Below the pieces are notes generated by a model. It worked only from the letters and a program-made list of their open reading frames with translations, searched no databases and was not told where the DNA came from. A stretch of DNA of 37,259 nt from Acidobacteriota bacterium (GTDB lineage: Bacteria; Acidobacteriota; Terriglobia; Acidiferrales; UBA7541): assembly GCA_003223295.1 (NCBI GenBank), contig QHYM01000116.1:1-37259 (forward strand). The letters run 5' to 3'. Positions 23,865 through 28,342 of the stretch are shown here, in pieces. Numbering within the stretch: the stretch's first letter is position 1; each line of letters begins with the position of its first letter. Both the position numbers and the translations under genes were made by a program.

Positions 23865-25145
23865 TTAGTTGGTCACGGACTCGGCGACTTTGCGGGGATA
23901 TTTTTTGGCGATGTAGTTGTCGACGAGGGCTTGGAAGGCGGCGGCGAGTTCGTCGTAGGTGCCTTCGAGGGTGACGTCTTTCTTGCCGTCGATGTACACG
24001 GGGCAGCGGGGGGCTTCGCCGGTACCCGGCAGGCTGATGCCAATGTTGGCGGCCTTGGATTCGCCTGGGCCGTTGACGATGCAGCCCATCACCGCGAGCG
24101 TCATGCTTTCGACGCCTTCGAATTGCGTTTTCCAGATGGGCATCATGTCGCGGATATAGCCCTGAATTGCTTCGGCCAATTCCTGAAATGTAGTGCTGGT
24201 GGTGCGGCCGCAGCCGGGGCAGGCAGTTACGCTGGGCGCGAACGAACGCAAGCCCAGCGCTTGGAGTAATTCACACGCGGCGTAGACTTCTTCGCGGCGG
24301 TCGCCGCCGGGACGCGGGGTTAGCGAGATGCGAATCGTGTCGCCAATCCCTTCGTAAAGAAGGACGCCCAGAGATGCAGCGGACCAGATTTGGCCCTTCA
24401 TGCCCATGCCCGCTTCGGTCAGGCCGAGATGCAGCGGCTGCTCGGTTTTCGCTGAGAGATCGCGGTAAACGGTGATGAGGTCGCGGGGCCGCGAAGTCTT
24501 GCACGATATGATGATTTGGTCGTGACGGAGTCCCGACTCGAGCGCGAGTTCCGCGGACTCCAGCGCGGAAATGACCATGCACTCGTTGATGATCTGTTCG
24601 GAATCTTTGCCAAGGCTTTTGTCGGTGTTCTCCTGCATCTTGCGCATGACCAGCTCCTGGTTGAGGGAGCCACCATTCACGCCGATGCGCACGGGTTTTC
24701 CATTATCTACGGCGACTTTACAGATCGTGGAGAACTGTTCGTCGCGGCGCTGCCCCGCGCCGACATTTCCGGGATTGATGCGATATTTGTCGAGCTGCTT
24801 CGCGCATTCCGGATACTTCGTGAGCAGGACGTGACCGTTGTAATGAAAATCGCCGATGATCGGCGCGCGGCAGGCCACGTCGAGCATGCGCTTCTTGATC
24901 TCTGGCACGGCGGCAGCGGCTTCGGGGACGTTCACGGTCCAGCGCACGATTTCCGAGCCGGCTTCGGCTAGCTCCACCGTTTGTTTGAAGGTGGACTCGA
25001 TGTCGGCAGTGTCCGTGTTGGTCATGGACTGCACGACAATGGGCGCGCCGTCGCCCACGCACACGTGTCCCACCTTCACGCCATAGGTCTTGCGGCGCGG
25101 ATGGCGCGTGGCCGCCGCGTCAAATCCTTCAATTTGGGTAAGCAT
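23865..25145 (-). CDS. ispG: 4-hydroxy-3-methylbut-2-en-1-yl diphosphate synthase
   Basis: IspG (GcpE) is the [4Fe-4S] enzyme that reduces 2-C-methyl-D-erythritol cyclodiphosphate to HMBPP in the non-mevalonate isoprenoid pathway. From ATG 25145 the 426-residue product has the TIM-barrel part ([39 protein letters not shown]) and the C-terminal cluster domain with C309 and C312 ([19 protein letters not shown]) and C355 with E362 ([10 protein letters not shown]). Spacing between the cysteine groups is longer than in E. coli but of a form common in other phyla. An in-frame start at 25238 would add 31 residues unlike the family and is rejected. The gene stands alone between an unknown exported protein and marR. 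Confidence 0.96.
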
Positions 25146-25266
25146 TCTTATCAATTCTAGCCCGAATCCGCCCTGGTGCGAAATCGGCCATTCCTTGCCG
25201 AAACGGGCCCTGGCAAGAGTCCAATATAGGGTTTTCACGAGTTCGCGAGGCGGTTATTCGAAAGAT

Positions 25267-25761
25267 TCAGAAACTTGTGGGCTTTCGGGCCTGAGTGTCT
25301 TTGGAAGGTTCCTCAAAAGCGGTGATGGTATGAGCAAGTTCTTCCAATCCGTTTCGCAAGCCTTTCCATTGCTCCGCACCCACCGTCGTTACAAACCGCT
25401 GCTGGACTTTGCGCCAGGCCGGCAAACTCCGGGCCAGCGCACGTTCTCCTTTACCGGTAATCTTCAGGAAACGCTGCCTCATCTCCGCCCGATTCGAAAT
25501 GGTGATGAGCCCTTCTTTCTGCAACAGCCGCAGGCTGCGTGTGAGCGTCGTGGGGTCAATGATGAGCACCTCGGCAAGCGCTCCGATAGAAACGGGCTGG
25601 CTCTTCATGATGCCGACGAGGATGCTGAATTGCGTCGAGCGCATGCCGCTTTCCTTCAGGGCCATGTCAAACATCCGCGTCACCGCTCGCGCGGTCCTGC
25701 GGAGATTGAAGGTGGCGCAATAGCCCGTTCCGGTTAGGTCCACATTGCCGTTGTGTGACAT
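25267..25761 (-). CDS. MarR-family transcriptional regulator
   Basis: A 164-residue winged-helix repressor of the MarR family, which usually binds palindromes as a dimer and is released by small phenolic or lipophilic ligands or by oxidation. The core reads YCATFNLRRTARAVTRMFD, then STQFSILVGIMKSQPVSIGA, ALAEVLIIDPTTLTRSLRLL, the wing EGLITISNRAEMRQRFLKIT and a C-terminal dimer helix. ATG 25761 is chosen because the longer reading from 25833 would begin inside the promoter and operator. A 22-base palindrome spans its transcription start, so autorepression is likely, together with control of the divergent membrane regulator gene. The ligand is not predictable from sequence. Confidence 0.9.
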   Translation of the reverse strand: MSHNGNVDLTGTGYCATFNLRRTARAVTRMFDMALKESGMRSTQFSILVGIMKSQPVSIGALAEVLIIDPTTLTRSLRLLQKEGLITISNRAEMRQRFLKITGKGERALARSLPAWRKVQQRFVTTVGAEQWKGLRNGLEELAHTITAFEEPSKDTQARKPTSF

Positions 25762-25780
25762 CTTTTCTCGAAATTGCAGC

Positions 25781-25829
25781 TTGACATGTATATGCATGTT
25801 AAAATACATTGGTCTTAGCGCGCTGTCAA
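25781..25829. promoter_or_regulatory. Divergent promoters sharing a MarR-type palindromic operator
   Basis: For marR (minus), TTGACA (25824-25829) and TATTTT (25801-25806) are 17 bases apart. For the plus-strand regulator, TTGACA (25781-25786) and TACATT (25805-25810) are 18 apart. An imperfect palindrome at 25781-25802 (arms TTGACATG and CATGTTAA around an AT-rich centre, 10 of 12 arm positions symmetric when aligned as 12-mers) overlaps the plus -35, the marR -10 and its start point. Its size is typical of MarR operators. Control of both directions is inferred. Confidence 0.65.
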
Positions 25830-25922
25830 GCACGCTCGAACGGATTGCCTGGTGCGGCGTCCTACTGCGAGTGGCCTCAAAAGCAGGTTTGGTCGCTCTT
25901 TCTTGCGACCCAGGGTGGGTTT

Positions 25923-26501
25923 ATGAATACGCAGTGGATTCACGCGCCCGCCCCAGAGCCGCAGCATCATCCGGCTACTGCGGCGCAGGCCCCTATCCCC
26001 ACACCCTACCTCCGCTTCGGCGCCTTTTGTCTCGATTTGCAAAGGGAGAGACTTTTTAAGGACGGCGCGCGCGTCAAGCTCCCGGGCAAAGTGTACCAGG
26101 CGCTGGTTGTGTTGATCGCACAGCCTGGCCAAATCGTCACGCGCGAAGCGTTGCGAATGCGTTTGTGGTCCGCCGGCACCTACGTCAACTACGACGCGAA
26201 CGTCAACACTACGGTCAACAAGCTGCGGCAAATCCTCGGTGATTCCGCGGAGCAACCGAACTTCGTGGACACCATTCCTCGTCGAGGCTACAGCTTCATT
26301 GCGAAGGTCGCATACTTGGACCAATCCCCGCTACCGACTGCGGTGTGTGACAAAAAAAGCGAGGCCATTCCCGCCGAGGAAAACTCCGCAAAAGGCGGAG
26401 TGTCCTTCCTGCGGAAGCCCATCGGTTCCACCTGGTTCATGGCGCTGCTGATCGCCGGCATGCTGCTTGGAGCGGGCCTGGTGTTGTACACGCACCGCTG
26501 A
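25923..26501 (+). CDS. Membrane-anchored winged-helix regulator (CadC/ToxR-type)
   Basis: A 192-residue protein with a cytoplasmic OmpR-type winged-helix DNA-binding domain at about 28-125: LRFGAFCLDLQRERLFKDG, VKLPGKVYQALVVLIAQPGQ, ALRMRLWSAGTYVNYDANVN and the wing region VDTIPRRGYSFIAKV. A short charged linker is followed by one hydrophobic segment (about 165-187, FMALLIAGMLLGAGLVL), leaving almost nothing outside. CadC/ToxR-like proteins with this layout activate transcription from the membrane, but here the periplasmic sensor domain is missing, so the signal must be sensed in the membrane or by a partner. ATG 25923 has a GGGTGGG stretch upstream. It diverges from marR over a shared operator, so it is probably under MarR control. 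A 7-bp hairpin lies inside the linker coding region. Confidence 0.85.
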   Translation: MNTQWIHAPAPEPQHHPATAAQAPIPTPYLRFGAFCLDLQRERLFKDGARVKLPGKVYQALVVLIAQPGQIVTREALRMRLWSAGTYVNYDANVNTTVNKLRQILGDSAEQPNFVDTIPRRGYSFIAKVAYLDQSPLPTAVCDKKSEAIPAEENSAKGGVSFLRKPIGSTWFMALLIAGMLLGAGLVLYTHR

Positions 26502-26512
26502 TTCGTGGCATT

Positions 26513-27094
26513 TCAAAGTGCGCCGCGCAGGCCTAGAGCGTCGGCGTGTTCGCGCATGGCAGCGATACAGAACTTAATGTGTTCTTCGAGAGGGATGCCG
26601 AGCTCTTCTGCACCTTTGCGAACGTCTTCGCGAGAGACACCCTTTGCGAAGAGTTTGTCCTTCATGCGGCGCTTTACGGAATCGACTTCGAGATCGAGGA
26701 TACTCTTCGACGGGCGGACGTACGCGCAGGCGGTGAGGAAGCCCGCCAGCTCATCGCACGCGAAGAGCGTGTGCTCGAGGGCGGATTGGCGGGGCACGTC
26801 GCAATAATCGGCATGGGAGAGAATGGCGCGAACAATTTCTTCCGAGTAGTCCTGTTGGCGCAGGATCTTTGCGCCTTCCGAAGGATGGCCCTGGTCGGGG
26901 GAGTGCTCTTGATTGGGCCAGCGCTCATAGTCGAAGTCGTGGAGCAAGGCGGCGAGGCCCCAGGTCTCTTCGTCGGCGCAGGACTTGCGGGCATAGGCGC
27001 GCACGCAGGCTTCGACGGCCAGCATGTGTTTGCGAAGCGATTCAGATTGCGTGTATTCGCAGAGCAGTTTCCAGGCGTCTTCGCGCGTCGGCAT
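26513..27094 (-). CDS. HD-domain hydrolase
   Basis: A 193-residue soluble HD-domain protein, a metal-dependent phosphohydrolase fold acting on nucleotides or related phosphates. Metal-ligand candidates are H23 (RKHMLAVE), H52-D53 (ALLHDFDYE) and the aspartate in FACDELAGF, with H70 (DQGHPSEG) and H94 (ILSHADYC) nearby. The sequence fits the small stand-alone HDIG-like proteins common in many bacteria; the substrate is unknown. ATG 27094 is chosen because GGGGGGAA lies about 5 bases upstream; an in-frame start at 27115 is poorer. It converges on the membrane regulator gene with 11 bases between stops and diverges from the XRE gene across a purine-rich tract. Confidence 0.9.
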   Translation of the reverse strand: MPTREDAWKLLCEYTQSESLRKHMLAVEACVRAYARKSCADEETWGLAALLHDFDYERWPNQEHSPDQGHPSEGAKILRQQDYSEEIVRAILSHADYCDVPRQSALEHTLFACDELAGFLTACAYVRPSKSILDLEVDSVKRRMKDKLFAKGVSREDVRKGAEELGIPLEEHIKFCIAAMREHADALGLRGAL

Positions 27095-27574: not shown

Positions 27575-28342
27575 GTGTCGGCACAAGTGAATAAAGACGA
27601 AATGAACACGCTCGAAATGGACCGGGAAGTGATCCGCTGCAAGACGTGTGGACTGGTACAGTACAGGACGCGCACGGGAAATTGCCGGCGATGCGTGCGC
27701 GCATTACCTCAGCGCCTGGAATTCTTGATTCCCCCGCCCCCGCCGGCGGAGGAAGTGGCGGCTGAGCCAGCCTCGGAGAAGTTCGTCAACCAACAAACCG
27801 TGGAGAACATCGGGCAGCGGATTCGCCAGTTACGCGAATCGCGCTCGATGACCCAAAGCCAACTGCAATCGCGCTCGAAAGTCTCGCGATCGTATCTCTC
27901 GAGAATCGAAAGCGGGCAAATGACGCCCAGTCTCGGCACGCTGGAGAAAATCTCGGAAGCGCTGAATGTGGGGCTGAACCGGTTCTTCATCCCGGAATCG
28001 GACGGCGAAGCGCTGCTGGAGGATCCGTTCATCCAGGGATTGCGACCGTTCCTGCGGCAACTGGATTGGGAACAGTGGCAGTCGATCCTGAAGAGGCTGC
28101 AGGCGATCAGCGACCACGTTCACACGGCACCGGTGAATCTCCGCCCTATCGGTAATCCGGCGCGGCTTCCGCAATCCGCGCCGGCGAATGGCAACGTGAC
28201 CGGACACATCGGAACCGGCCATTCGAATGGCGCTGTGCACGCGCATGTTCATGGGCATGCGCAGGGCTACGCGCTGCAGAGGCCGGGAGCGCCCTTTGGA
28301 ACGCAGAGCAAGCCCGCGTTTCTGAGGCCGGTGGCGCGATAG
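27575..28342 (+). CDS. XRE-family regulator with N-terminal zinc ribbon and His-rich C-terminus
   Basis: A 255-residue DNA-binding protein. It starts at GTG 27575, supported by AAGGAG (27564-27569) at 5 bases; the ATG at 27602 lacks a site. An N-terminal ribbon has C22, C25, C37 and C40 (CKTC and CRRC), probably zinc-binding. A Pro/Ala/Glu linker leads to an HTH_3 domain at about 80-137 (RIRQLRESRSMTQSQL, SRSYLSRIESGQMTPSLGTL). A helical part (about 150-182) follows, then a flexible tail whose residues 211-228 are rich in histidine (AVHAHVHGHAQG). It has its own sigma70 promoter and terminator, so it is monocistronic. Target genes are unknown. The HTH and cysteine motifs are seen; metal binding by either end is inferred. 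Confidence 0.85.
   Translation: MSAQVNKDEMNTLEMDREVIRCKTCGLVQYRTRTGNCRRCVRALPQRLEFLIPPPPPAEEVAAEPASEKFVNQQTVENIGQRIRQLRESRSMTQSQLQSRSKVSRSYLSRIESGQMTPSLGTLEKISEALNVGLNRFFIPESDGEALLEDPFIQGLRPFLRQLDWEQWQSILKRLQAISDHVHTAPVNLRPIGNPARLPQSAPANGNVTGHIGTGHSNGAVHAHVHGHAQGYALQRPGAPFGTQSKPAFLRPVAR

Follow-up and report, generated by a model that had tools for sequence, protein, structure and literature searches.

The marR and winged-helix genes and the region between them

The DNA analyzed here, called the window, is a stretch of 37,259 nucleotides from an Acidobacteriota bacterium (contig QHYM01000116.1), the draft genome of which comprises 6.03 Mb in 481 contigs. A marR gene and a winged-helix gene diverge within it from start codons at 25761 (minus strand) and 25923 (plus strand), with 161 bp between them. 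In this gap, two promoter-like sites with perfect TTGACA boxes face each other, and there is an imperfect palindrome of 22 to 24 bp. The features of the locus are as follows.

25267-25761, minus strand: marR gene, encoding a MarR-family winged-helix protein of 164 aa with one cysteine (C15)
25780-25803, no strand: proposed MarR operator, a 24-bp imperfect palindrome, CTTGACATGTATATGCATGTTAAA, found in 13/13 pairs
25781-25786, plus strand: -35 box TTGACA of the winged-helix gene, inside the operator; TTGACA or TTGACT in 13/13
25786-25797, no strand: operator core ATGTATATGCAT (WTGTATATRCAW), one occurrence in 6.03 Mb
25801-25806, minus strand: weak -10 box TATTTT of marR, 17 nt beyond the -35 box, overlapping the operator edge
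25805-25810, plus strand: -10 box TACATT of the winged-helix gene, 18 nt beyond the -35 box
25824-25829, minus strand: -35 box TTGACA of marR; TTGACA in 13/13
25867-25874, plus strand: conserved G[CT]GAGTGG in the winged-helix leader, 10/10 aligned members
25923-26501, plus strand: tail-anchored winged-helix gene TA1, 192 aa (Pfam Trans_reg_C, E 3.3e-13); orthologues adjoin marR in 13/13
26067-26297, plus strand: OmpR/ToxR-type winged-helix DNA-binding domain, residues 49-125 (PF00486, 49.9 bits; cut-off, 26.2)
26430-26492, plus strand: predicted C-terminal transmembrane helix, residues 170-190, with GMLLG at 179-183 (from hydropathy, conservation, and a model)

An earlier note on this DNA had reported a perfect TTGACA in both directions, and we found both (25781-25786 on the plus strand and 25829-25824 on the minus strand). 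There were 3 promoter-like sites in 2.4 kb, compared with 0.7 +/- 0.9 in shuffled sequences, and both -10 matches in the window are weak (4/6 each). The same note had placed a 22-base palindrome over the plus-strand -35 box and the marR -10/start. It is indeed there, at 25781-25802, with 9 of 11 pairs matching. However, when the intergenic region was dinucleotide-shuffled 2000 times, 39 of the shuffles reached this level, 114 reached the best 16-mer level, and 127 reached the best 24-mer level. Judged from the window sequence by itself, the palindrome is marginal and only mildly unusual, which makes it weak evidence.

Within its own 6.03-Mb genome, the core WTGTATATRCAW occurs a single time, at the pair. 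The full pattern with up to 3 mismatches had one other match (contig C154, 3 mismatches), and the reversed control also had one. A looser 14-mer at 2 mismatches gave no excess over the control in the same genome (15/15 versus 19/19). The pair's neighbors in the window (ispG, an HD protein, an XRE-type regulator, and an amidase assigned by eye as gatA) are mostly housekeeping genes, and there was no obvious target-gene candidate among them. The ispG (GcpE) gene is at 23868-25145 on one flank, and the HD-domain protein (26516-27094) and XRE-type regulator (27602-28339) are on the other.

Conservation of the pair, its palindrome, and its MarR protein

The earlier note had named joint conservation of the pair and the palindrome as a check on its interpretation. 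A search of genome contigs with the single MarR sequence found no relative, and a search with a MarR alignment found 13 loci. In a set of 61 genomes, 13 had a MarR of at least 54% identity, all of them among the 36 of the same genus, and these MarRs have diverged to 54 to 69% identity with the MarR of the window. Alignment A1 holds 12 of the 13 MarRs (G029 out), and alignment A2 holds 11 of the 13 partners (G030 and G002 out). Among named records, those that have the closest MarRs are MAGs of Acidobacteria, and several of these carry the label gp2. In all 13 genomes, the winged-helix gene is divergent beside the close MarR, with a gap of 108 to 174 bp by the starts chosen, and facing TTGAC promoters recur, with their -35 boxes 41 to 44 bp apart. 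The palindrome is also present at every pair. Twelve were found by pattern, and in G002 the right arm is one base shorter. The outcome favors the interpretation in the note, with pair and palindrome conserved together in 13/13 genomes with a close MarR.

The palindrome occupies the same place in all 12 other genomes with the pair. It includes the winged-helix -35 box in 13/13 genomes, and the best marR -10 candidate (4 or 5 of 6 matches) overlaps its right edge in 13/13. TATAAC is the winged-helix -10 box in 11 of the 13 genomes; G026 has TATAAG instead, and the window has TACATT. The cross-species operator is 24 bp long, with the ideal form CTTGAnTTGTATATACAAnTCAAG. A sliding-centre control, which covered 12 of the 13 genomes (G002 was omitted for its shorter right arm), gave a mean of 9.5 of 12 pairs at the palindrome centre and 6.2 at the next best centre, against a mean of 3.4 (standard deviation, 1.06) over 95 centres, with the caveat that the genomes are related, so the palindrome columns are not independent. 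We judge the palindrome to be real because it is conserved across species and not because of the window statistics. By ORF clustering of stretches of differing length, 10 of the 13 loci have an ispG-like gene close to the pair, and 11 have an XRE-type gene there.

A close MarR and a partner orthologue were both not recognized in the other 23 genomes of the genus. Their best winged-helix match belonged to a second tail-anchored group (TA2; see below) in 14, was of sensor type in 3, and was weaker than E 1e-33 in 6. These genomes are drafts of 55 to 100% stated completeness, so absences may be gaps. With up to 2 mismatches, a 23-base operator pattern was found in the 61 genomes at 12 of the pairs and as two 2-mismatch strays (G013:C108 and G028:C25), with 1 match for the reversed control. 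When 399 genomes of the class were searched, 14 matched the 24-base pattern. In 12 of these the match was at the pair, and in G228 and G238 it was a 2-mismatch stray; the reversed control gave 3 matches. The pair is a well-conserved regulatory pair of one genus, in which the combination is new and the parts are ordinary.

We also analyzed 16 more distant MarR relatives, which were 15 matches with E values of 1e-24 to 3e-11 plus L129 (49% identity). None had a TA1-like winged-helix neighbor in the 3 to 5 kb read. Even so, 13 of the 16 (L030-L036, L038, L131, L133, L134, L135, and L129) have TGTATATRCA, on either strand, directly in front of marR; it was absent there in L130, L037, and L132. The core did not precede any of six weaker MarR matches with E values above 1e-7 (L040-L043, L045, and L046). 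Because the core precedes 13 of 16 distant marR genes that have no such partner, the operator is most likely MarR's and not the winged-helix protein's. These sequence comparisons suggest that it most likely belongs to a MarR clade whose members adjoin different genes, the winged-helix gene being the neighbor in this genus. In L129 (DAHUXF010000074.1), the core is kept at the marR start, and a divergent gene for a 509-aa FAD-oxidoreductase-like protein (by eye) takes the place of the winged-helix gene.

Seven of the 16 (L031, L034, L035, L036, L038, L133, and L134) have a second core, located 427 to 434 nt beyond the point where the MarR match begins. We could assign a target beside it in five. 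This is a metallo-beta-lactamase-fold gene in L036 (by Pfam) and in L133 and L134 (by eye), and a 4Fe-4S/SCP2-type gene in L034 (Pfam SCP2; for Fer4, one model fell just below its cut-off and another above) and L038 (by eye). L031 and L035 are the two without an assignment. Six of the seven relatives with two TGTATATRCA sites have a MosR-like Cys-x-Cys pair.

The MarR of the window belongs to the MarR family (PF01047, 32.3 bits against a cut-off of 24.6; E 9.5e-08), and its AlphaFold2 model has a mean pLDDT of 82. MarR proteins typically, though not universally, bind a palindromic operator in their own promoter. Among solved structures, its best relative is 4fx0 (E 4.7e-19), which the structure search labeled a probable transcriptional repressor protein. 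We take 4fx0/4fx4 to be MosR (Rv1049), a redox-sensing MarR. C15, the sole cysteine of the window's MarR, aligns with the first of the two cysteines of 4fx0, which are spaced as are Cys10 and Cys12 of MosR. This first cysteine is present in all 13 MarRs. However, the position two residues on is S, T, or A in all 13, so that none has the MosR-type Cys-x-Cys at the start of helix 1; one further cysteine occurs elsewhere in 4 of them. By eye, Cys-x-Cys is present in 14 of the 16 distant relatives, the exceptions being L038 and L129. MosR Cys10 and Cys12 are described as forming an intrachain disulfide upon oxidation, and MosR as regulating a secreted oxidoreductase, in the accessible text of PMC5823404. 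The MarR described here differs from MosR in having only the first cysteine of the pair, and its putative target is a regulator rather than an oxidoreductase. Redox sensing is possible, but a conserved cysteine is no proof of it, and a ligand as the signal is equally possible.

The predicted tail-anchored winged-helix proteins

In the model of the winged-helix partner, the winged-helix elements extend from residue 29 to 132, a low-confidence linker follows, and a helix spans 170-190 (mean pLDDT, 74.8). Its best structural match was the ToxR-DNA structure 8b4d (TM-score of 0.87, normalized by target), and by sequence ToxR was also the best match, with CadC matched as well. Like ToxR/CadC-type regulators, the partner has an N-terminal OmpR-type winged helix and a single transmembrane helix, the latter predicted from hydropathy and the model. 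However, it lacks the periplasmic sensory domain of ToxR and CadC, a domain that not every member of the group has. The earlier note had described it in this way, and the description holds across species, because only 2 to 6 residues follow the hydrophobic 19-mer in 12/12 readable orthologues. The single helix, predicted at the extreme C terminus with no N-terminal one, is also what characterizes tail-anchored bacterial proteins. In the accessible text of PMC3087755, the only transcription factor named as a tail-anchor candidate is SCO4008, which turned out to be soluble. A word search of the available text of a second tail-anchor paper (PMC6794478) did not find transcription, regulator, ToxR, DNA-binding, or sigma factor.

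The mean frequency of the commonest residue among orthologues was 0.81 in the winged helix, 0.70 in the helix region, and 0.43 in the linker. The transmembrane helix carries [GS][MIV]L[LIF]G in 12/12 readable TA1 orthologues and in 16/16 TA2 proteins. G030, which has a run of N in the gene, was excluded from the tail-anchored alignment, the tree, and the helix counts. The looser (G/S)xxxG was present in 28/28 tail-anchored proteins read, compared with 3 of 10 sensor-type helices (L006, L010, and L014). We considered whether the motif might be exclusive to tail-anchored proteins and ruled this out, because the sensor-type helix of L014 has GILIG, which fits even the narrower form. The (G/S)xxxG motif is therefore enriched and conserved in tail-anchored helices but not exclusive to them.

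The genome of the window encodes a second tail-anchored paralogue (L113; G000:C443, 1791-2438) of 216 aa. It is a member of TA2, a group from which we read 16 proteins of 16 genomes out of a larger number listed. They have in common the motif GML[LI]GA and a DANVNT[TA]VNKLR recognition helix, and 15 to 31 residues follow their hydrophobic 19-mer, more than in the pair's proteins. All 13 winged-helix proteins encoded at the pairs carry this recognition helix, whereas three sensor-type relatives lack it; the C443 paralogue and the putatively MarR-controlled protein both have the DANVNTTVNKLR version. A tree built from 45 winged-helix domains united both tail-anchored groups in one clade (98/98). 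Within it, TA2 had support of 88/84 and the pair's group only 55/0, so the order inside the clade is unsure; the bootstrap of this tree had not converged. Domains for the tree were cut by a simple rule, and a few rows (G028, G013, and G002) start early and end short; the 14 rows labeled long include three short frames (L004, L008, and L009). The C443 paralogue adjoins a DDAH/arginine-deiminase-like gene, an S15-type hydrolase gene, and a typA-like gene (typA by eye). Three other TA2 loci (L114, L115, and L116) also have S15-type and typA-like neighbors, with a DDAH-like gene in L114 and L115.

There were 16 winged-helix matches in the window's own genome: 3 response-regulator-like proteins (by eye), 8 long, 3 short, and the 2 tail-anchored ones. 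Seven of the eight long proteins have a transmembrane helix after the winged helix, and the three short ones have none there. In a search of the 399 genomes of the class, with at most 8 candidates per genome scored, the matches listed outside the genus at E <= 1e-33 were in frames of at least 650 aa, except in G156, where a frame of 150 aa lies at the end of a contig.

A candidate switch and its alternatives

We propose that the pair is a two-gene switch with a single operator. In this group of soil acidobacteria, MarR would repress both genes, and the signal that it senses inside the cell would set the level of the partner. We regard this as probable. A MarR dimer is predicted to bind the 24-bp palindrome at 25780-25803, where it would cover the winged-helix -35 box and its own -10/start and so block both promoters at once. 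A signal, either a small ligand or a change at the lone cysteine, would release MarR and allow transcription of both genes. The partner would then be inserted posttranslationally by its C-terminal helix, leaving the DNA-binding domain in the cytoplasm, and would probably pair through the (G/S)xxxG face of the helix. It may act as a transcription factor at other promoters, perhaps shared with the second tail-anchored paralogue. Since it has no sensor domain of its own, its output would be set by the amount that MarR permits. The earlier note had proposed that MarR probably controls both itself and a membrane-tethered partner, and the co-conservation of pair and palindrome, with a core that is unique in the genome, supports that proposal. 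We infer dual repression from one site as the simplest reading of the promoter and palindrome geometry. Several points count against our reading. The palindrome of the window is marginal when taken by itself, and the winged-helix -10 box of the window (TACATT) is poorer than the TATAAC of 11 other members. Three distant MarR relatives lack the core, the helix motif is shared by some sensor-type helices, small residues have been reported to hinder the pairing of a helix (in the part of PMC8307134 available), and the tail-anchor candidate SCO4008 was soluble.

It is conceivable that the winged-helix protein itself, and not MarR, binds the palindrome, in which case a membrane protein would autoregulate the pair. 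The palindrome is located in the winged-helix promoter, and ToxR-type proteins often bind close to the -35 box of their targets. However, direct repeats are the usual sites of OmpR/ToxR-type domains. The operator is also absent from 14 genomes of the genus that have a tail-anchored paralogue but no close MarR, and the distant relatives described above (L129 included) keep the core without a TA1-like neighbor. Therefore, we consider this explanation highly improbable. MarR might instead be an activator, as some MarR proteins are, or it might repress only itself while the partner promoter escapes it. The winged-helix leader, which would be about 100 nt long and has a conserved block of its own, would be compatible with this. 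Even so, the -35 hexamer of the partner is within the palindrome in 13/13 genomes, which is the usual place for exclusion of polymerase, and we think that this alternative is unlikely.

A different question is what the C-terminal helix does. It might be a mere anchor, or the remnant of a longer sensor protein, with no further role for its sequence. Half of the winged-helix matches in the genome have long C-terminal parts, mostly with a transmembrane helix after the winged helix, and [GS]xxxG also occurs in some sensor-type helices; both points speak for this explanation. However, the tree places both tail-anchored groups together in a single clade, separate from the remaining winged-helix rows, they have kept both the recognition helix and the helix motif, and the helix region is better conserved than the linker. 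We find this explanation rather doubtful. A bolder and equally tentative idea is that the tail anchor is a working part. The (G/S)xxxG helix would pair the partner with itself and with the C443 paralogue, and the MarR signal would retune a shared membrane-bound regulon through the ratio of the isoforms. If true, this would be a concentration-driven pair of membrane transcription factors without an extracellular sensor.

Our proposed switch has a known parallel. In Vibrio parahaemolyticus, VtrA/VtrC senses bile salts and turns on vtrB, and VtrB carries its DNA-binding domain at the N terminus and a transmembrane helix at the C terminus (PMC4933562 and PMC9977878, as far as their accessible text goes). 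As would be the case here, a first-tier sensor controls transcription of a second winged-helix regulator with a C-terminal transmembrane tether, and the signal enters at the first tier, as we propose for MarR. The upper tiers differ, because VtrA/VtrC is an activating membrane receptor, whereas the MarR here would be cytosolic and probably repressing, and its gene diverges from that of the partner around a single site that both would share. The targets of VtrB are known. For the genes described here, it is the geometry of palindrome and promoters that points to such control of the partner by a first tier. In the literature searched, which covered few subscription journals, we saw no MarR described as controlling a regulator of the ToxR-like or tail-anchored kind, and VtrA-VtrB was the closest case. 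The earlier note had called the arrangement an unusual two-tier switch. This stands for the upper tier, since a cytosolic MarR above a ToxR-like tail-anchored protein would be new, but the two-tier logic was already known.

If our proposal is correct, the pair would be a clean case of a membrane-bound transcription factor that has its own synthesis, and not a periplasmic signal, as its input. It would come with a defined operator at a single site in the genome, and it would draw attention to the tail-anchored winged-helix proteins as a clade that has conserved a transmembrane motif. To our knowledge, few transmembrane regulators of Acidobacteriae have been studied so far. The number of such regulators per genome was above average for Acidobacteriae in a survey (PMC10269533, accessible part).

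The conserved block G[CT]GAGTGG in the winged-helix leader was read from an alignment that excluded G002, G004, and G026. It might be bound by the winged-helix protein, or it might be an RNA element. An Rfam scan of 25200-26600 found no match up to E 0.1. A leader peptide of the form MARSxAIxRV(E/A)-stop can be read in G029, G014, G030, and G023, but we rejected it as a general feature because G011 and G017 lack the ATG and the reading stops early in G028 and G013. The block is followed by AATAA in most aligned members, and an inverted repeat, ATTCC..GGAAT, flanks it in some.
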